Notes under the pieces: generated by a model | The model's input: the letters and a program-made list of their open reading frames with translations, nothing else | Database searches by the model: none | What the model was told of the DNA's origin: nothing | Shown here: piece after piece, positions 1,790-43,400 of the stretch | Numbering within the stretch: position 1 is the first letter of the stretch | Layout: each line of letters begins with the position of its first letter | Assembly: GCA_947568835.1 (NCBI GenBank) | Contig: OX387603.1 | Coordinates: 6,546,701-6,610,700, forward strand | Reading direction: 5' to 3' | DNA length: 64,000 bases | DNA from: Protonemura montana | Taxonomy: Eukaryota; Arthropoda; Insecta; Plecoptera; Nemouridae | Program-made: the position numbers and the translations under genes

Positions 1790-4700
1790 CTAGGCCAGTA
1801 AAGAATCAACGTAAGGGTTTTTCGCTGCCATAATGCCGACTTTGAGCTGCTCCACTCTCTGGGACAGTTCAGGCTCGCTGATTTTATCAGAGGCAAGTTT
1901 CTTGCAAGCTTCTAGGAACTCTCTCACCATCTTTGTACCTTCCTGTAAACCAAAAATGAGATTCCATGTGTATTGAGTGAGAGAAGCAAGACCAGGATAC
2001 GAATTTATGTAGGCTACCATCCCAAAACTAGGAGCAAGACGCTTATACAATAGTGGAGATGTCTAGTAGTGATTTGATTGCAGTGAATAAGCCATAAGCT
2101 CATAGGGGAGGATTTTTTTTAAACACGATCTTATTCGTTACGCTTGTGGGCGAACGAAAAAGTAGACCTGCAAGTGAGCACATCCAACATTTTCAGGAAG
2201 GTTTGATCTGAATAGTGCGTTACAAACACCATTATCTTTCTTCGAGACTTATTTGGTTAGCCTATAAGTGACCAATGCTTTCAATGAAATTCACATATTT
2301 TCAGGTGTCAAGCCAAGAGTAATTTTAGGTTTAGGGTCCACTGATATGTTCACGTTACATTAAAACAGATTCTATTCGGCTTTTGATTGACTGTGTTTTG
2401 CATTCTGGTGTACACCTTTGTTCTACCTATTGTTGGGAATGCCAATCTAGGTATGGTCTGCCAAATGTAACCCTGATATACATACCTCCAGAGCCGGAGT
2501 GTCACTGCACCGTGCCTGCCCGACTTCAAGCTCGGCCTGCTTTTTCGCGGCCATCTCTAGCACGGCAGGTGGAAACCGGGCCATGCGTGCGACGTGCAGC
2601 CCAAAGCTCTGATCGCAAAAGCCGGGCCGCACGGCGTAGAGCAGCGTCAGGCGGTCTCCGTCCGCAGCTGCCGTCACATGGCGATTGTCCACCGTCGGCA
2701 CAGAGTCCGCCAGTGCAGACAGCTCGTGAAAGTGGGTGGCAAACAGCGTGAAGCAGCGGACGCTCGTGGCCAGGTGCCTGCAAAGTGAAGGATGTCTTGC
2801 AATTCAAATCCACCACAGAAATCAAGGAATCTATTGAGTAGATTGTGTGCCAAAATATAAGCTAAATAGGAGTCAGAATTTACACCTGACAACCATTACT
2901 GCACAATTAGTATTTGCTCCATAGAAGGGTTTCATCTGTTTCCTGAGACCAGCATGAGTGGAATACCAACTGAGCATAACTGACCTAAGAAGTCTGTGGT
3001 TATAAATTGATAGTTCATCACTTAGTTCATCTATGAACCAGAGCAATGCTGCATATCCAAACAGCAAACAATTATGAAATGCTATGTGGTCCTATGCCTA
3101 CTCAATGAGCTCTGTTTTTAGGATGGCTCTGGTCTAGGCGCCTACAATGCAAACTTGATAAAAGGCACACTAGGCTATAGACAGAATCTTGGGTCCATTT
3201 TCAAACAGCATAAAAATTACTGACCAGCTGGTAGGAACAGGCAGGAAGTACATAGCTGCCACTTGAAATAATGAGCATGCCGTATGTGTGACGGCTGTGC
3301 GTCTATGTTTAACGAGACTTGAATGCCGATGGGCGGAACTCACTCAGCAATGGCCCAAGCCATGCCGCAGCCGTCGTAGGTGGAGGTTCCACGGCCTAGC
3401 TCATCAACGATCACCAACGAACGCTCGGTGGCTGTCTGTGGACAGAGTCAAGCCGTCACTAACATTACAAGTTGGCAGAAATAAAAGCATATTATTTTCC
3501 TATCAAGGCTCTCAATGTCCTCTTTCTCTTCCTGTTGCCTTTGTCTAAAGCAGCAACTTCATAAGAAGTTACAATCAATCTGCTGTGTTTTGAAAACAAA
3601 ATTATGAAAAGATATGAAGCCCATTGACAAGCTATATCACAGTTGGTGACTACAAAAAATTCCATACATTTTGTATTTTAAGAGAAAACTAATATTGTTC
3701 TAGTGGAATTACCGTTTTTAAATAAATTTGAATTCAAAACACAAAGAAATTCAAAACAATGTTTTTCGGGCTCACCTTGACTACTGCGGCCGTCTCCACC
3801 ATCTCGTTCATAAACGTGGAGACGCCGTTGAGCTGCGAGTCATCAGCGCCGACCCGTGCCAAGATGGCGTCTACCAGGGAGAGCTCGGCGTCGTCGCAAG
3901 GAACGAAGCTGCCAATCTGAGCCAGCAGTGTGGCGACGCCCACCGAACGGATGAACGTGCTCTTGCCACCCATGTTCGGTCCGGTCACTACATACTGCGT
4001 AGTCTCGCCTGTTGGGCAGTCGGCAAATGACACAAGGGAACTTTGTCGGTTTGCGAGGATTTAGTTTCATTGGCATTCTTTTTTTGTTGCAAACTTTGAA
4101 AACAAAAAAACCAACCATAGGAGATTAAATGTTTGAGTGAACTTTTGATAGTCACATAGATGTTAAGATGTGGCTACCTAGCTATCTTATCTTGCTATCT
4201 TATGTTGACATGGACATATTTGGCTATTTACATTAAAATGTGCTTATCTTTAAATTTGAGTGGCCAATTGCACAATCTACTCGTAAAATTAACCCACAAG
4301 ATAAACAGTGACGTCAGAACAGCATTGCCCCCTAGAATTGGAAATGCTTGTGCTTCTGGGGGACAGTACAGTTCCTCACTTCATGCCCCAACTACTACCA
4401 ACCTCATAAAACTTAATTTCAATGGCAGGTTTATAGCACAAACTTTTCCAACACAAAACTATCTCTTGTACATTCCCAAGAGGGATAAATGTTTTTTACA
4501 CTACTATCGACGCTTATCAACACAAAAAAAGCAATGTTGTTGCTCTTGTAGGCGAGTGTTGATTGGTTGATTTGCTTTGTAAAACGACGCACTGTTTTGA
4601 CAACTGGCCCTGCGGCACTGGTCTTACGGCGTCGGTGAATGAGTGGATGCTGATGAGGCTGAACCTAACATAGTCTAGAAAGGTGGAGGGGAAAACGGTG

Positions 4701-14400: not shown

Positions 14401-16613
14401 TGACGACGATCTTGATCTTTTTAAAAGATCGCTTTCAAAACGATCTTCCCCAAATATGGCACCAGAGCATCATTATAATTATTTTCTGGGATGTTTACAT
14501 TTTTCTTCAATGTTGGACTTGCTCGAACTCCGCTGCAGTTATCGCCTGGATACAGTAGGATAGCGGCAGCGCTGAGAGCGAATGTGAGCGAAAGGACTTT
14601 AGACCGATGACCGAGCAAGCTTGGAACAGATAGTATACTTGAGAGGGAGCGAACGTAGCGCCATCCCGTGTCCAGATGGGAAACTATTTTAGCTTGTGGG
14701 TGAGGGGATTGGCGCGAATCTTGCGGGGCGAAAGCTTTCGCGTAGCAATAGCATAGGAGTGGACAATCTGTGTATGTCTATCTATGGTCAAACGGTGAAA
14801 AAAATTCACAAAATCGACTAAAATTCTCTAAAAATCACTTAAAAGCATTAATAAAAACAACTATGCAACTTTGAGTCTTGAAATAAGTTACTTTTTGCAC
14901 AATAATATAATAATTGAGAACGAAATAACATATTGCAAATTAAATAAAAAAATTAAATGGTAAGTTTAAACTGCACTCCATAGAGACAAAATGAAAAGGT
15001 GTGCATTAGTCATGTGATCTCTTTGGAGCCCTAATTGAGGGGTGTCAAGCATATGCTTAGATTTGTTTATCATTTGACTTTCTCAGTGCGTGAGTCACCG
15101 ATAGGAGTAAGCTATTAACTTCCCCACTTCCTCCACCATGCATATCAAGGGAGCATAGGCAAAGTTTTAAATTGATTACAGCTTGCAGTAGTGTGCCAGT
15201 CTTGTTGGAGATAAGCGTTATTAGGCATCATGCTGCCAAAAGTTCTGTGCTTATTTGGAATAGTAGCATTGGTAGCTGCTGCTCCATACTCGGACCGCCA
15301 GTACATTGATCAGTTACAGAAAGAATACCAGGATGACCAATATGACTCGACCTCAGAAGACTATGGAGTATTTGACGGCATGCAGCAACAGTTTGAAAAG
15401 GCTAATGGGCAAAATTTGGAGTTGAAAGATATAGAGCAGTTTGAAACGGAAGGAGATAAACAACACGACGGCATTGAACAAATTAATGATAGGGAAGACA
15501 TTGAACAAACTGATGATAGGGAACAAGAAGATATTGAACAAACTGATGATAGGGAACAAGAAGATATTGAACAAACTGATGATAAGGAACAAGAAGATAT
15601 TGAACAAATTGATGATAGAAAAAACATTGAACAGATAGATGACAGAGAAGACATTGAACAAGGTCAACGTGGCTCAGGGGAAGAAATGCAAGATATTGAA
15701 CAAGTAGACCAAGATCCTGAATATCAACCAGAAAAAATAGAACAAGTTCAGCAAACCGATGATTATTGGAAACAGAACCATGACAGTAACGACAACGATG
15801 GAGATGATAAAATCCATTTCCCAGAAGACATGGATCAATTAGAAACTGACAGTGCAATTGGGAAGCTATTTGGTAAGAGCACAGTTCAAGAGCAAGAAGC
15901 AAAGTATGATGACGATCAGGATCAACAGCAAACAGAAGTTAACTTTGACGAAGATAAACTGCCTGAAGAGGAAGTAATATCAAGTCCAAGCTACAAACCA
16001 AACTATGGATCGGGACATTCTGGTGCATACAAGCCTTTGTATCCATATGAGCCAGAAGTGACCACCAAGAAGCCATCATGGTACAAGAGATTGTGGGCGA
16101 GCACCAAGGAAAAGGCAAGAAATTTGGCACACAAAGTTAAGGAAACTGTTGGGAGAAAATAATTACCATAGGGTTAATGATAACTATTAGAATGTGTAAG
16201 ATTTACTAAAATGGATGAATGCGCTTTAAAAAAACAGACTCTAAATTGTATTGTACTTTCTTAGACCTAAATTAATAATTGCATATAACTATTCAGACCA
16301 ATAAATGATCCAGCTGAGCATTATTGAATCCGTGCTGATATACATACATATACTTAGACGTAGGGCTGGTATGAATAGTGTAATCACTGGGGATGTATTA
16401 ACATGTATTAATTAAGAAATTAAATACCAACCTCTGGAAGAGACTTGTAGAAATTCACGAATCCCTTCTGCTGCGATTCATCTGTAATTATAAAGAATCA
16501 GGTTTTAGTTCTTAGTTGCACGAGTTCAATATATATTATTTAAATTCGGTTAACCTAAAACATAAGCATTTTGATGTACCTAAAGTAAATTGTTGTTTCG
16601 GTTGAACTGCCAT
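1790..16613 (-). CDS. MSH2: DNA mismatch repair protein MSH2 (complete, 15 coding exons)
   Basis: MutS homologue that pairs with MSH6 or MSH3 in the nucleus to recognise mismatches and loops. Coding exons in transcript order: 16613-16580, 16481-16432, 10401-10129, 9670-9395, 8525-8337, 7897-7716, 7355-7158, 7031-6817, 6603-6458, 5913-5738, 5392-5169, 4008-3776, 3435-3344, 2777-2486, 1942-1790. They total 2733 nt, 910 aa (human 934), with consistent phases and GT..AG borders. The start encodes MAVQPK, as in human. The N-terminal domain has [15 protein letters not shown]. Walker [11 protein letters not shown] is near residues 663-672, Walker [13 protein letters not shown] near 740-751, and ATHFHE near 776-781. 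The C-terminus stops at SLLA, slightly shorter than human. Intron 2 (about 6 kb) contains a separate plus-strand gene. Other introns carry SINE and LINE pieces. Confidence 0.97.
4585..5012 (-). mobile_element. 5S rRNA-derived SINE, copy A
   Basis: On the minus strand the 5' end resembles the 5S internal promoter region: GATCACCGAAGTTCAGCA, then TTGGATGGGTGACC. It is followed by a body shared with the other four copies: CTTATCAACCTCTCGACAGC, a conserved GGGACGTTAA block, and a 3' end GTCAAAACAGTGCGTCG. There is no poly(A) tail. It lies in MSH2 intron 11. The boundaries are approximate. Confidence 0.8.
6321..6400. repeat. Four tandem 20-bp units in MSH2 intron 9
   Basis: Four consecutive 20-base units of the pattern AGATTGTTGTATCTGGTATC. 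The two inner units agree best and the first and last are diverged. It is a small minisatellite-like expansion inside an intron, with no coding meaning. Confidence 0.85.
7610..7694. repeat. Short direct duplication in MSH2 intron 6
   Basis: A block of about 30 bases beginning GCTGGTATCTTCTCT and ending TAGACTGTA appears twice with a few differences, separated by about 25 bases. It is a local duplication upstream of exon 7 and does not affect coding. Confidence 0.6.
8955..9368 (+). mobile_element. 5S rRNA-derived SINE, copy B
   Basis: It starts with a 5S-like head (CCGAACAGTTTGGTGTGT, then GAGATCACCGATGTTAAGCA and ATTTGGATGGCTGAC) and continues into the shared body GCTTATCAACCTCTCGACAG. It ends GTTGTCAAAACAGCATCG. 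It is the most diverged of the long copies and runs antisense to MSH2 in intron 4. Confidence 0.8.
11416..11474. repeat. AT-rich microsatellite, (AAAAT)n then (AAT)n
   Basis: A run of AAAAT units passes into about 15 AAT units. On the minus strand this is a (TTA)n tail exactly at the 3' side of the adjacent LINE-like fragment, which suggests it grew from that element's terminal repeat. Confidence 0.9.
11475..11800 (-). mobile_element. LINE (non-LTR retrotransposon) 3' remnant with microsatellite tail
   Basis: A minus-strand frame at 11591-11779 reads through a segment ending [18 protein letters not shown], which has the shape of the C-terminal end of LINE reverse transcriptases (a conserved 'RG..LW..LP'-like block near the end). 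The frame then diverges, and the DNA ends in a (TTA)n tail. The LINE clade cannot be assigned. The copy is old and truncated. Confidence 0.4.
15230..16162 (+). CDS. Unrecognised secreted acidic-repeat protein, nested in MSH2 intron 2
   Basis: A 310-aa single-exon ORF on the strand opposite MSH2. The first 17 or so residues are a clear signal peptide ([18 protein letters not shown]) with likely cleavage before PYSDRQ. Residues about 81-144 are a tandem repeat built on [11 protein letters not shown] (33-bp units with variants). Most of the rest is rich in D, E and Q, followed by a Tyr/Pro/Gly-rich stretch. The last 27 residues are strongly basic and helix-friendly ([20 protein letters not shown]). 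The Kozak-side sequence and the downstream AATAAA support a real gene. Function is unknown. One reading is an acidic pro-region with a cationic C-terminal peptide; another is a cuticle or matrix protein. Confidence 0.8.
   Translation: MLPKVLCLFGIVALVAAAPYSDRQYIDQLQKEYQDDQYDSTSEDYGVFDGMQQQFEKANGQNLELKDIEQFETEGDKQHDGIEQINDREDIEQTDDREQEDIEQTDDREQEDIEQTDDKEQEDIEQIDDRKNIEQIDDREDIEQGQRGSGEEMQDIEQVDQDPEYQPEKIEQVQQTDDYWKQNHDSNDNDGDDKIHFPEDMDQLETDSAIGKLFGKSTVQEQEAKYDDDQDQQQTEVNFDEDKLPEEEVISSPSYKPNYGSGHSGAYKPLYPYEPEVTTKKPSWYKRLWASTKEKARNLAHKVKETVGRK
15472..15663 (+). repeat. In-frame 33-bp tandem repeats coding [11 protein letters not shown]
   Basis: About six units, three of them nearly perfect (GATATTGAACAAACTGATGA core), then shorter IEQIDDR variants. 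Unit length is a multiple of three, so copy-number change keeps the frame. The two other minus-strand frames across it are also open, which explains spurious antisense ORFs. Confidence 0.9.
16300..16305 (+). terminator. Poly(A) signal of the nested gene
   Basis: Canonical AATAAA 138 bases after the stop codon of the nested secreted-protein gene and upstream of MSH2 exon 2. The nested transcript can therefore end wholly within the intron. Confidence 0.6.
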
Positions 16614-34407: not shown

Positions 34408-37400
34408 ATGTCGGGATCAATCGAGATCCCTTTACGGGATACCGATGAAGTAAGTAGTTCTCCTGTATATATCACACAGCTTTTTATCTGACATTGAAGG
34501 GTCATAACCTTAAAAGTTATTTTTGTATTTGTGGTTTGTTACAGACCTTAATTTTAACTGATATAACTGATTCTAGTACATTTTGTGAAACAATTCTCAA
34601 TGTACGAAATCCTTCCAATATTTTTAAGGTTATCGAATTGGACTTCGATCAGCTTCCTGAAGGAGATGAAGTCCTAAGTATTCTTCAACAAGAAAAAGCC
34701 GCATTGAATATTTGGGTCACTTTGGGTGTAAGTAAGATTGTTTTGGAGATATTTTGTGAACTCTTGAAATACCTTGCCTTCATCTAAATTATCAGGACTA
34801 ACTATATTATTATATACATTGTAGATTGAGTACTACAAACAAGGGAAGATTGATGACTTCATCAAAATCCTTGAGTCGTCTCGCAATGACGCGAGCGTGG
34901 ATTATCGGGATTATGAAAAAGATCAAATGCTTGCTCTGGATATGTTGGCAGCATACTTCGTACAAAAAGCTAATCGAGAGAAGAACAAAGACAAGAAACG
35001 AGAGCTGTTCACAAAGGCTACGTTGTTGTACACTACTGCTGACAAAATCATCATGTACGACCAAAACCATCTCCTGGGGCGTGCATATTTCTGCCTCCTG
35101 GAAGGGGACAAGATGGAACAAGCTGACGCTCAGTTCAACTTTGTTCTTAATCAGTCTCAGAATAATATCCCATCTCTCCTTGGTAAAGCATGCATTGCTT
35201 TCAACAAGAAGGACTACAGAGCAGCGCTGGCCTTCTACAAGAAAGCTCTCCGCACAAATCCACAGTGCCCTGCCCAAGTCCGGCTGGGTATGGGTCACTG
35301 CTTTCTGAAGATGGCCAATCAGGACAAAGCAAAGCTTGCGTTTGAGCGCGCTTTGCAGCTAGATCCCACGTGTGTTGGCGCTCTTGTCGGCTTGGCGATC
35401 CTCAAGCTAAACAACCAAGAGCCGGATCAAATCCGTTGTGGAGTGCAGATGCTCTCCAAGGCATACACAATTGACTCAACCAACCCAATGGTGCTCAACC
35501 ATTTGGCCAATCACTTTTTCTTCAAAAAGGATTATCACAAGGTACGTTCCAAGGACCCATTTGCAATCACCCTGTGCCATCTGCGCCGCCCATTACCAGG
35601 CTTGACACTTGTTCTCAGGTCCAGCACCTGGCACTGCACGCGTTCCACAATACAGAGAATGAGGCTATGCGAGCAGAGTCATGCTACCAGCTGGCACGTG
35701 CGTTCCACGTGCAGGGCGACTACGATCAGGCGTTCCAGTACTACTACCAGGCCACACAGTTTGCGCCCGCCGCGTTCGTGCTACCCCATTTCGGGCTGGG
35801 ACAGATGTACATCTACCGTGAAGACACAGAAAACGTAAGGGGAGATGGTTTTTCACTTTATTTACATTTGGGTCATTCCATGTGTAATCACTCACCTCAA
35901 ACTTTGACCGACCCAGATTTTGATGAAAATTGGTATACTTGTTAAGTTTGTTGACTTAGGGGCTATTTTTTAATTTTTTTTTTTTTGGTCCAACCGTTCG
36001 GATATTACAAGGGGGGGAAGTTGGGGTCATTTTGCCCCCCGCGCGTGTAGTGACCACCCTTTCTACGCAATATCTAGGGTTCTATGGGAGCTACAGAGCT
36101 GGGAAAAAAATCATCTGAAAGGTAATTTCATACCCTACCTGAATATGGAAACAAAAATGACGATATGTTAATACGAATTTAATTGTGATTTTACACATCT
36201 GCATTTTCCAAAATGACCATATCGCTGATGAGTCATTTTTGATTTGCCTGATTTTTTTTCTATATGTACAGAACATACATATGATCATGTGTTCCAAAAA
36301 TCAAGATGGGTGTTCTACTACTTTCCAAGAAAAAAAAATGTTTTCTGCAAATTCATTCATAATATAAATTAATATGAACTGAATTTAAGACAACATTCAA
36401 GAAAATGATCATTACTTACAATCATAGCTACTATGAAGTACAAATTTGCATATCTTAAGAGAGATGTAGTTTACCTTATTGAGGTACATATTTTATAAGC
36501 CCTGCTGTTGCCCTGTTGGTGTCTGTAGCCGACAAAAAGTATGTTCGACCAGTTGCCGTGTTGGGGTCGGCCAGTGTTAAAACATCAGCAAAAGCTACAA
36601 TTAGTTTGTCTTGTACACTGGGATAAAAATATGATGGAGCTGGTCCATGAGGGTGTAGAAAGTTGACTTGAAGTTCAAGAGACTGTGATGATTTTTCAAG
36701 AACACACGCTAGCCACCAGTCTTCGTTGTATGCTACAGTGATGAAACTGCCCACGTCTTTGAACTCAAACTCGGGTATTTCTGCTGCTGTTGCTTCCTCC
36801 TCTTCTTCTTCTTCTTCTTCTTCTCCTTCTTCATTTTTCTCAACAATCTTCACAATGTTGATTTCTTCAGAAAGAGAAAAGTGTTTCACATGTAAGGAAG
36901 TTAGCGATTTTGGGTAGAACGCATGAAAGCTTCTTGTGCCTACGATAGTTTTTAATTCTTTGAATCGTTCTTTAAGTTTGATGCCATTTGCTGTAATCTC
37001 TTCATTGGCTACAAACACAAAATTTACAGTCCACACATTTTCTGTTGCCCACCGGTAAAAGTCTATCGGCGTCATTATTTGGTCGGCATATGGTTTCTGT
37101 AAACTTGCCCGTGCTGCATTTCGTTTTACAGTCCCACCAACTCCATCGCATGGTCCTTTACCGTGGGATGTGGCAAAAAAATGCCACTCAGCAGTTAGTT
37201 CGAAGTCAACTTCATGATGGCACAAGTTGGAAAAATTCTTCTTATTCTTATATTGGGCTGCCGCTCCATCAGAAAAGTAAATTAAATGGGATACATCCGA
37301 AATGTTTTGTTTCAGGTGTCTTATCAGGTGCTTTTGGAAAGTGTGCACAGTAACGGTGTCATGAGTTAGCGAGTCAGAAATGACAACGTAACTTAAATGT

Positions 37401-40400
37401 TGTATGTCTCGATCTTCAGGCTTAAAGTAACACACAAATGGGTGAAGGGTGCATTGGCTGTTATTCCAATGGTAACCTTGTGCAGCATCCTGGAGCACAA
37501 AAGAATAATTCTCAGCGAAGTCGCCCACTACTAAAACTTCCCCTGGTTTAAGGTTGGCTTTCTTCTCCTGCATGAATGCCGCTTGCTGCCGTGCAATAAA
37601 ATCATGATTTCTTAATAAAATGCATTTTTCAATAAAACAGTCAACAAACTCATCTGTAGGTTTCGTAATTGTCTCTAGGGTACATCTGTCTGTTGACAGC
37701 CACTGTTTATAAGTCACAGAGTCTATGAAATTTTCACTGAATGAGATTTCTAGCCATTCACGAAGTTCATCGGTTCCCGGACAATTGCCACACTTTCCTA
37801 CAAAGCAGTTGAGAAGCGGGGGGTTGCACATGAGGCTGGCAAGGCAGTGTTGGTATGATTTGATGGTACCGTCTGAAAGCAAAGGCAGCTTTGCTCCCAA
37901 AGCCATCAACTTAACGTTTTGGTGTATCGTACAGACACAGACAGAATGTGTCCCAGCTGCTCCTGCCAGAACACAATGTTTGGGTCTGAGCTCTGCAAAC
38001 TTCGAGAATCCAACCTTGATGTCAGGATATTTATCTTTGAAGCTGCGATACACTTCACTTAAGTTGCTTAACACTAGTCTCTTCTGGCGGTGAACTCGAT
38101 TGTCACCCACTTTAACCGAGACAAAATCTTTTTTACCCGGCATGACACGGCTTACATCATCATTTTCATAAAACTCTTCAATCAGTTGAATGCAATCAGG
38201 GGAAAGAGTTTTTCCTGCTTTTTGATTTGCAGATGGCAGTATCCCTTGGGCCTTTACTAGTTGTTTGGTTTTACGTACCAAATGGTTAGATGCATTGAAC
38301 TCTTGCATTATTCTCTTAATGCTCCAACTTTTTGGAAGCACAGATAAAATTGTTATTTTCTCGCTTCTGGTACTCGTCTTAAACTTTTCTTTCAGTTGTG
38401 CTATTATCTCTGACCCATCACGGATGCTGTCCTTGCACTCCTCTGAAGATGTCAAATCTTCTTTGCTGATTTCTTCATTACTGGGAGATACTAGTTCCAA
38501 TCTCTTCTTTACACCTTGTGTTATTTCGCTGAACTTTCTTTTCGAATAAAACATAGATTTACCCTTTAGTTTGGTGGTATTAATAGGTGACACACCAAAT
38601 GCAGCTAAAGACTGATTCACGGCATCTGCTTCACAGGGTATGTCCACGAAAGGTAGGTCAAGTTCAGTGGATTTAGTTGGCGTTAGAACAGAAACGGTTG
38701 TTAGTTCCTTCAGCCTGAGCGAGAGCAGCTTACGGCAAGTTGAGCATAATTTCTTTCCAGGGATGAGGTCGGCAATCTCCAAGTATTTCGTCCTGGATGC
38801 TGCATTAATTTCTCTTAACCCATTAACTTTCACTATTCCACAGTGAGCCTGAAACGGATCGCAGCATAACTTGTGGTGACAGCTATACAGACGAAGGAAT
38901 TTCTTTTCATGTAAATGACACACGGTCTTCACATTATCACACTTAGTACGCAGAGCTAATGATAACTGCTGGTCACTATTGAAACTTTCAATGCTTTTAA
39001 TCGCTAGATCTTCGATGGGTCCACATTCTTCTTCAAAGAACAGTCCAATTGAGCACATTATGAATCTCTAAATAAAAGGTGCTTGAGAGCAAATTAGCTT
39101 CTATCCTCATCAACATGAGGCCAGAGACTGATTGCTTTAGTCCAGACAAGAAATTACCAAACTTTTTACTTGTAACCTGTTACAACTTGATCCATGATTC
39201 AGGAGCATGACAAACAATCTATAGTTGTATTCTAGGGAATACCATTTTAAGATTCTTGTAGATGCAAGTCCAGACAAGAAATGAACAAACTTTTGACTTC
39301 TATGAACTGTTTCAACTTGATCCATGATTTACAGGAATATGGCAAACAATCGATTTGTATTGTAGAGAATAACATTTCAAGAACATGCAACTGTGCAAAC
39401 AAAAATCAACTTTAATATAAAATATATGCCAGTGCTCTGATCACAATAATTGTGATCAAAATGCTGTTCTACTGGCAAAAAGGCACTTTTTTATAGAAAA
39501 AATTTTTTTTCTTGGAAAGTGGTAAAACACCCATCTTGATTTTTGGAACACATGATCATATGTATGTTCTGTATATATAGAAAAAAAATCAGGCAAATCA
39601 AAAATGACTCATCAGCGATATGGTCATTTTGGAAAATGCAGATGTGTAAAATCACAATTAAATTCGTATTAACATATCGTCATTTTTGTTTCCATATTCA
39701 GGTAGGGTATGAAATTACCTTTCAGATGATTTTTTTCCCAGCTCTGTAGCTCCCATAGAACCCTAGATATTGCGTAGAAAGGGTGGTCACTACACGCCCG
39801 GGGGGCAAAATGACCCCAACTTCCCCCCCTTGTAATATCCGAACGGTTGGACCAAAAAAAAAAAAAAAAAAAAATAGCCCCTAAGTCAACAAACTTAACA
39901 AGTATACCAATTTTCATCAAAATCTGGGTCGGTCAAAGTGAAATTTAATTAAAAGTGAGTGATTACACATGGAATGACCCATTTGTTACTGCTTTAAACA
40001 AAAGGTGATTTGTTAGTGGTCAATGCCAAACATATCATGCCACCTTTTCTGCTCACTAAACAAGCAGGAGCATTGCTTTGTTTCCACAAATCTGAATGTT
40101 TTCGAATCATAGTCAGACAAATCTGTCCCAGGAATGACTGTGTCCTTCATACCACCACTCACCAAACAAAACGTTCTATGATTTTAAGATTATAAGTTTA
40201 GGATCTTGGTACTTTGAAAAGACCAAAGCTGAGCAAAATTGTCTCAGAAAGTTGCAATTTTGCTCAGAAAATATTACCCAGAAGTAACAATAACATATAT
40301 AAACAATATAAATGATGATAATAATTATGTAATAATAATTATAAATAATAATATAATGTAACGAATACTAAGAAACCCTATGAATTCTATAAACACTTAA

Positions 40401-43400
40401 AAGTGTGAGATAAGCCATCGCCAGAAACTTAACAACCTTTCCGATTCAAGCCACTCATGAGCTCTTAAGCCATGTGCTTTCAGTCTCATTCTTATGCATT
40501 CATTCGTGTATTCAGGCTGCTCAGTGCTTCGAGAAGGTGCTAAAAGCGCAGCCGGGCAACTACGAAACGATGAAGATCCTCGGCTCCCTTTACGCCGGCT
40601 CTTCGAGCCAGTCTAAGCGCGACATTGCCAAGAGCCACCTGCGCAAGGTGACGGAACAGTTTCCCGAGGACGTGGAGGCGTGGATCGAACTGGCTCAGAT
40701 CCTCGAGCAGTCGGACCTGGCAGCCGCGTTGGCGGCTTATGCAACTGCAACGCGAATCCTCCGCGACAAGGTCCACGCCGAGATACCGCCAGAGATTCTC
40801 AACAACGTCGGCTCTCTGTACTACCGGCTGGGGAACCTCACCGAGGCGCAGGCCAGCCTGGAGGAAGCTTTGGCACGGTGAGCACGTAACCTCAGTCTAC
40901 TTCAAGAGTTTGGTGGTTTGTTAAATACAATGGCTCTTAAGATAAGACATTCGGCAATTCTTAAGTGAAAAATGGTTGAAAAATTAAGTGAGTTTATGAT
41001 CAGTGCTCAATAGCCGTTACAGTTTTGGCAGAAATGGGCCTCCGACAATCTTCTTAAAATTTAACGTATATTCTAGTTTCTGAATTGTAAATATTATTGT
41101 ATAGCAAGTGACTAAAATGATAGACTTCAATGTCTGCAAAATATTTTCTAACCTTATTTGCCCAGAATTGTTTGGAAGCAATAATTACTTTTCAATATGT
41201 TGGATTTGATTTTGCAGTACATTTTTTTTAAGCTTTCGAAACCTAACCTTAATGCTAAACAACCGATATTTGCACAGGTCTAAGGTGGAGGCTGACCAGG
41301 ACCCTCAGTACTACAACTCGATGGCAGTGACGACGACGTACAACCTCGCGAGGCTGAACGAGTCCCTATGCCATCACGACCGCGCTGAAAAGCTGTACAA
41401 GGACATCCTGAAGGAGCACCCCAACTACGTCGACTGCTACCTGCGTCTGGGGTGCATGGCTCGCGACAAGGGACAGATCTACGAGGCGTCCGATTGGTTC
41501 AAAGAGGCGCTGCGAATCAACAATGAGCACCCAGATGCGTGGTCTCTGCTTGGTATGTTGTGCAATTTGCGGTAGACGTTTTGCTATTTGTTAGTGAAAG
41601 TGCTGTAATTTTGGTTAAAAAGTGTACTTCCCCATCTTTAAAATCAACCTTTTTTTTTAGCAGACACTTAATAGTATTAAGTGAATAGTAATTTTAGGTG
41701 ATTTTTTTGCTGGTTTGTTGGTCTATTTAAAGTCTATACATTGATTTAAAAATAAAACTTGATTGGTCTGAGTTGAAAATCCCGAGACTCTGATCTCAAC
41801 GATTAATGAGAATGTCTAAAGATGTTAAGTTAATCATTAGTTTCGAGGATCAAGGACTGAGCTTAGAGGGCAAAGATATGGGAATTTGAGACTTGGGAAG
41901 AAATTTCATTACTTTATTGATAATTACGTCGGCTTACCTTACCTTTTGTGCCTACAAATGTGTCGATCACTAAAACAATCTGCCGAGAGAGCCTATGGAC
42001 AGGAAAGACTGGTTTAAGTGTAGTAAATCTGTGTACTGAATGGTGGACGGTGGTTTTGCAGGCAACCTGCATTTGGCCAAGATGGAGTGGGGACCCGGTC
42101 AGAAGAAATTTGAGCGAGTTCTACGCAACCCCGCTAGCGCCAATGATGCGTACGCCATGATCGCGCTCGGCAACGTCTGGCTGCAGACGCTGCACCAGCC
42201 GACACGGGACAAAGACAGAGAGAAGCGACACCAGGACCGAGCACTCACACTCTACAAGCAAGTGCTCAAGTGAGTAAAGTCCGTACCGAAAGATACTGGG
42301 GACATTTTTGAGTTGCTCATGTGGAAACACTTGGATTTGTAAGACTAGCTGGTTAATTATTTTATTTGTGATTCGAAAAATTGTGACAAGGTCTCTTGTG
42401 CAGTGTGCTAAGATAAAAATTACACAGATTATTGCATTTCTAAGTTGGCTTGACATTCATTGGAGTACCTCGTGCATATCTGTTAGCAAAAAAGGATGTT
42501 TTTAATTAAAGAGAAGTGCTCAAAACTAGGGGTGTGCGAAGCTTCGAACTTGACGAATAATTCGGCTCGAATCGAATTATTTGACTTCGATTGTCGATTA
42601 GTTGTTTTAAAATCATTCGAAAATACTTCGGTTCGAAAGAAAATTATTCGCTGTTCGAATGCTTCGAGGTCAACTTCGAAGTTGGTTCATGTAATGGCTA
42701 CTAGGGAGCAGCACACGTCACAAAATTGAATTCCAAACATGAAATTCAAAATGGCCTTTACTCTGGTTCAAAGACCCTCTGGTTCTTGCTTATTTAAATC
42801 TTCTTCTATTTACGTACTTATGACCCCTTCTGGCTCCTACCATGGATATTGATATGAGTGAGGCAGAAACGGAAAGGCAAGGTGATAACAATAACATCAA
42901 TGATAATAAGAGGAGTGTAATTTGGGACCACTACAAAAAGCTCATTTTTGTTATTTTATGATCATGCTGTTTAAAGTGTTTATCATGCTATGGACATGGT
43001 TATCTGTCACAACTCACCCTGATTTGATAAACATGAGATTTATGGGTAAACTTTTTAGTAGTACATTAAGGAAAGAGACTGGAGCTATAAGTATGTACCT
43101 TACGGAATGCTGTTTAACTGGAAGTTAAAACATGCTAAACTTGCTAATAAATACCAAAGTGACAATAAAAATTCAGAATTCTGCGTTTTGAAATTGAAAT
43201 GAAGTGATAAAAGTAGCAATTCGAAAATACTTCGATCAAATGAAATACTTCGATATTCGACGTTTTTGTAAATAATTATTCGAAATTCGATTCGGTTTGA
43301 AACTGTGGACAATAATTCGATTCGATATTCGATTCGAACTCAAAAACCACTATTCGCACACCCCTACTCAAAACTCAAAAGCTACCTGTCACATGCATCC

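Follow-up and report, generated by a model that had tools for sequence, protein, structure and literature searches.

The insect Protonemura montana (Plecoptera, Nemouridae) carries within its CTR9 gene a DNA transposon of 4,111 bp, which recurs at about 163 places in the genome and is, in most of the copies read, the same sequence letter for letter. The element was found in a stretch of 64,000 nucleotides, termed "the window" in the following (assembly GCA_947568835.1, contig OX387603.1, positions 6,546,701 to 6,610,700 of the forward strand). With a probability of roughly two in three, we read it as an autonomous cut-and-paste transposon of the Sola type, closest to Sola2, of which a single sequence was recently amplified to ~163 copies, most likely after horizontal arrival. 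The element is an intact, apparently recently active transposon, most likely caught unusually early. New here are its 163-fold, near error-free amplification, how few derivatives and fossils accompany it, and the traces of exchange between the two arms of the element.

Structure of the element

The element and its parts occupy the following positions of the window; the open reading frame (ORF) was taken from the ORF listing, and the candidate catalytic residues from a reading of motifs.

35866..35869: left copy of the target site duplication, ATTT
35870..39980: complete DNA transposon, 4,111 bp, with its ORF on the minus strand
35870..36343, plus strand: left terminal inverted repeat, beginning GGGTCATTCCATG
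36476..39058, minus strand: ORF of 860 amino acids, presumed transposase
37145..37147, minus strand: candidate catalytic aspartate D638
37268..37270, minus strand: candidate catalytic aspartate D597
37520..37522, minus strand: candidate catalytic aspartate D513, in VVGDFAENY
39139..39354: two direct repeats of ~85 bp, 128-132 from start to start, lying between the start of the ORF and the right arm
39497..39980, minus strand: right terminal inverted repeat
39981..39984: right copy of the target site duplication, ATTT

The original prediction of an intact transposon with inverted repeats of ~470 bp, an exact 4-bp duplication and an undamaged ORF of 860 amino acids is borne out: the arms measure ~475 bp each, ATTT stands on both sides and the ORF is uninterrupted. 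In the inverted ends, an indel separates a block of 443 nt (98% complementary) from a terminal one of 32 nt (94% complementary, flanking bases included). The alignment of arm against arm that had been proposed as a check spans this indel and yields 95.9% identity over 487 columns. The element begins with GGG and ends with CCC; GGGTCATT is found at element positions 1 and 155, and a reversed copy lies near the opposite end. The 860-aa frame is the sole long ORF inside the element. No second ORF of more than 122 amino acids appears there in the ORF listing, and so there is no Fanzor-like passenger. The ~85-bp direct repeats are perhaps promoter or binding sites.

Copy number and integrity

Other genomic copies, for which the original prediction had proposed to look, were sought in the window's own assembly (258 Mb, 34 contigs), and about 163 were found. 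Genome-wide there are 163 occurrences of a 33-mer taken from the 5' portion of the ORF, and a 41-mer from the ORF core, allowing up to three mismatches, is likewise found 163 times, with all of the 100 listed occurrences exact. The terminal 26-mer has 328 exact occurrences and 334 at up to three mismatches, compared to 0 for a reversed-pattern control; the six additional ends sit beyond the listed places, and their sequences were not read. In a DNA search, 40 of 364 candidates were scored, all of them 100% identical over 3,001 bp.

Both internal markers are equally spaced in all 100 listed copies of the 163. Taken in order, the first 100 ends make up 50 pairs of neighbours (of ~167), 47 of which are spaced at 4,085, one at 4,084 and one at 4,086, while the remaining pair, with a spacing of 90, is part of a nested locus. 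No short derivatives occur among these 50 end pairs, nor any internally deleted copies among the 100 listed, and almost every copy thus appears to be full length.

Copy-to-copy identity and the age of the burst

Forty copies with their flanks were taken from contigs C1 and C2, namely the window copy, a copy cut by nesting (L023) and 38 others. Among these 38, 28 match the window copy exactly over 4,111 bp and all keep the 860-aa frame, the only amino-acid change in the set being H723N in copy L041. Contigs C3-C5 contributed eight copies, seven of them complete, of which two are identical to the window copy and all seven full-frame. Three further copies from C2 (two identical, all three full-frame) were drawn from the best matches of the DNA search and are therefore biased toward identity. 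Summed over the three sets, 32 of the 48 complete copies besides the window copy show no difference from it in 4,111 bp, and all 48 have the full frame, in agreement with the earlier claim of a recent insertion and a potentially autonomous element. Each non-identical copy among the 48 departs from the window copy by one event or two; averaged over pairs, 39 copies differ by ~0.016%.

Outside the arms, the 48 copies hold four private substitutions (element positions 1022, 1097, 1197 and 2154), or ~2.6 per 100,000 sites; the rate in the first 38 copies was 2.5e-5. Assuming between 1e-9 and 1e-8 changes per site per year, and with assembly errors included, the burst would be roughly 2,500 to 25,000 years old, a figure to be taken as a loose guide. 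The pattern suggests a very recent amplification, too recent for deleted or decayed copies to build up.

Exchange between the arms

The two arms mismatch at a handful of places that are common to nearly all copies read. These mismatches are consequently older than the burst and uninformative as to its age, and the clock is the identity from copy to copy, not from end to end. Arm identity was therefore rejected as an age estimate, and the earlier view of the matched inverted repeats as a sign of youth has to be given up; whole copies, by contrast, are mostly identical to each other.

A few copies carry variants in which one arm has taken on precisely the base found in the other, at element positions 102/103 (4/48), 3704 (1/48) and 3928 (3/48). 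The chance that three in seven substitution events copy the other arm is 3e-8 (a post hoc figure from the first 38 copies). These variants look like conversion or template switching; a crossover between the arms was rejected, because only a single arm is altered per copy. The remaining changes have an ordinary look: those at 197 and 3863 in the arms, one at 3633 next to a run of A/T, and an extra base in a run of Ts.

Target sites, clustering and nested insertions

An exact 4-bp duplication flanks 37 of the 40 copies from C1 and C2, seven of the eight from C3-C5 and all three further copies from C2. A chance match is excluded by this total of 47 in 51. The copies without a duplication are L023 and L024, which form one nested locus, L060, which has a nested insertion inside, and L036, to which we return below. 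The 37 duplications tallied comprise 23 different sequences and are AT-rich, with A in 62% at the first position, T in 51% at the last and A or T in at least 86% at each position; TTAA is absent from them. The target context is symmetric and palindromic, C preceding the duplication at 54% and G following it at 41% of the 37 sites.

Two loci record insertions of the element into itself. On C4 an element sits within another copy and is flanked by an ATGA duplication of its own, and at C1:22022459-22030684 the nested pair L023/L024 covers 8,226 bp, 4 bp more than twice the element length, and is bordered by ATAT on either side. At the inner junction of this pair the terminal 86 bp are turned round, between CCCCTAA and TTAGGGG. 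The two nested loci imply successive jumps. Along C1-C4 (98 copies), 18 gaps between neighbours are shorter than 100 kb, where 7.9 are expected (p ~0.001), and C2 harbours 34 copies where 18.8 would be expected (p 2e-4 in a chi-square test across contigs).

Superfamily and origin

Several observations weigh against the interpretation put forward here, as a whole or in part. The 860-aa protein, compared with Pfam, NCBIfam, PHROGs and PDB sequences, gave best E values of 0.051, 0.12, 0.18 and 0.76, which are at chance level, and a single-sequence fold prediction of residues 330-700 reached a mean pLDDT (predicted local distance difference test) of 35, too poor for use. The core motifs, looked up as strings in the literature, led to unrelated papers. 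Peptide patterns, which reach only close relatives, found no relative or donor in viral contigs, prokaryote genomes and phages, a set of collections that does not include animal genomes. One copy, L056, chosen for its odd end spacing, has its ORF broken by a 1-bp deletion, and about four of the ~167 end pairs lack a matching core marker and could be core-less derivatives or copies with a changed core. The most diverged copy read, L054 (G000:C16:8293826), differs at five positions in 2,901 bp, one of the changes turning Tyr into Phe in the QYKN motif, and may stem from an older sublineage of the burst. The complete and identical copy L036 (G000:C1:32533784-32537894) has no 4-bp duplication, its flanks being TTAA and AAAA, and arose perhaps by recombination between copies or by a target deletion. 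Gaps below 500 kb are not in excess on C1-C4, and the clustering at shorter range could reflect target preference as well as local hopping. Finally, assembly polishing could have made the copies more alike.

Since the fold prediction is poor and no profile matched, D513, D597 and D638 stand as candidates, which, judging from the motifs, could form a DDD triad. According to the mechanism that we propose, the 860-aa protein would attach to the long inverted ends, cut the element out via a DDD RNase-H-like active site and insert it, with a stagger of 4 bp, into short palindromic targets rich in A and T.

The founding paper of the Sola superfamily is reportedly that of Bao et al. 2009. Elements of the CMC/Chapaev group end in CAC and were rejected on the GGG...CCC ends found here. 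Academ elements combine a 3-4-bp duplication with an Academ transposase, and the duplication length of our element is compatible with theirs. Kolobok and piggyBac, which are defined by a TTAA target duplication (PMC9587614, in excerpt), do not fit the 37 duplications tallied. Ginger elements have TG...CA ends and a Gypsy-like integrase (PMC10741241, in excerpt), and were set aside on the ends and on the lack of an integrase-core match in Pfam. The same excerpt gives Sola elements a size of 2-9 kb, inverted repeats of 11-1124 bp and a 4-bp duplication, and the present element, with 4,111 bp and arms of ~475 bp, lies within this range. For Sola2-type elements, duplications such as AWWT, ATAT, AAAT and ATTT are reported (PMC3627910, in excerpt); here an AT-rich duplication of the AWWT type is a preference and not a rule. 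The same source describes a Sola2 transposase of 888 amino acids, compared to 860 here, and an AT-rich 4-bp duplication as in our element, whereas the arms of its elements are 12-21 bp long, in contrast to ~475 bp.

Duplication, size, arm length and palindromic target accordingly fit Sola, and Sola2 most closely, as judged from published descriptions; the core of the protein may resemble Sola transposases as well. It is unlikely, yet deserves consideration, that the transposase represents a superfamily not yet described, or another of those that make 4-bp duplications (Academ, Chapaev/CMC or Ginger). The lack of a significant Pfam, NCBIfam or PDB match leaves room for this view; against it, the ends agree neither with Ginger nor with CMC, and size, arm length and AT-rich 4-bp duplication agree with Sola.

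Diverged relatives in the insect's own genome were sought with four degenerate patterns for two core motifs, built so as not to match the codons that the burst copies use. Some codons or residues are fixed in these patterns, and relatives with other codons as well as ancient remnants could escape them. They gave three matches and no diverged relative: the burst variant L054, and L049 (C2:5101116) and L053 (C11:2360964), which were rejected as relatives and taken as chance, their best E values against the protein in tblastn being 6.7 and 2.5. As neither the degenerate patterns nor the end counts detect a decayed family, an arrival from outside is favoured over a reawakening, and the burst probably followed a horizontal transfer. 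The original prediction had named many diverged copies as evidence to the contrary; the copies are indeed many, yet none of those read is more diverged than L054, and only six more ends appear at up to three mismatches.

More tentatively, the invasion may still be going on: a Sola-like element from another species would now be spreading in the host population, with most insertions unfixed and almost every copy still autonomous, before the appearance of deletion derivatives, miniature inverted-repeat transposable elements (MITEs) or decay. Rather improbable, in our view, is a recent burst from an old resident family, of which one surviving master was reactivated without horizontal transfer. Such a single-master burst would likewise yield identical copies, and it would be in keeping with the lack of a donor in the collections searched. 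A resident family is, however, expected to leave decayed copies or short derivatives, whereas relaxing the match adds just the six ends mentioned, the core marker at up to three mismatches has the same count (163) as the exact 5' marker, and the degenerate patterns, within the reach that their fixed codons allow, retrieved no diverged relative.

That the copies are older and were kept alike by gene conversion, or were homogenised by assembly polishing, is very improbable: the exchange of bases between arms suggests that conversion occurs, but it would need to operate across ~163 scattered sites without any decayed copy remaining, the near-identity of the ORFs extends to synonymous positions, and the private and shared single-base variants among the copies indicate that the assembly resolves some of their differences.

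Comparison with recent transposon invasions

Young, intact multi-copy elements are known from other superfamilies. ZB, a Tc1/mariner element of zebrafish with a TA duplication, is described with 20 full-length copies that are >99% identical, 19 of them intact (PMC7913693, in excerpt), whereas here ~163 copies are, in the sample, mostly identical over 4.1 kb. The invasion of Traveler, a DD35E Tc1/mariner element of which a single toad species holds >2,000 intact copies, was likewise judged recent from low divergence and intact copies (PMC7093834, in excerpt). In that case "recent" denotes a Kimura divergence of <5% and most copies are truncated, in contrast to a mean pairwise difference of ~0.016% (39 copies) and no internal deletion among the 100 copies listed in P. 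montana.

The host gene and other features

The exon map of CTR9 around the element, with splice sites read by eye, is as follows.

near 34408: start of exon 1
near 34629: exon 2
35542: GT donor at the end of exon 3
35834: end of exon 4
35835..40515, plus strand: intron 4, with the element antisense within
40516: start of the following exon

The frames 34825-35838 and 40414-40881 match solved CTR9 chains in phmmer searches (E 1.2e-124 and 2.8e-56), and the frame 35475-35945 also matches CTR9 (E 3.3e-36), although engineered tetratricopeptide (TPR) repeats outscore CTR9 there. The last base of exon 4 is 35834 and the first of the following exon 40516, so that the element lies antisense in intron 4, where the original prediction had placed it. 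Minus the element and one ATTT, this intron would measure 566 bp.

Elsewhere in the window, positions 15215-16162 (plus strand) hold an ORF for a secreted-looking acidic protein that carries repeats. On contig C4, positions 5760925-5762262 hold a full-length COX1 that scores the same as the copy on C34, and a second, partial COX1 lies nearby; the C4 sequence is either mitochondrial DNA that was recently copied into the nucleus or the product of an assembly join. The COX1 on C34 makes sense when TGA is translated as Trp, AGA as Ser and AAA as Lys, in keeping with the invertebrate mitochondrial code (table 5) of protostomes.

Biological significance

The history of a DNA transposon invasion usually has to be pieced together from decayed copies. 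A set of ~163 copies, almost all of them apparently full length, would open the first stage of an invasion to study, including the rate of spread, the choice of targets, exchange between arms, the emergence of deletion derivatives and the onset of silencing by the host. The effects of insertions in introns of genes such as CTR9 could be studied likewise. No Sola transposition assay is apparent in the titles and abstract openings of the open-licence Sola literature, a body of text from which subscription journals are mostly missing. The natural sequence described here is a candidate active Sola-type element, whose present activity we infer; if this is true, it could provide a functional Sola-type transposase for work at the bench.

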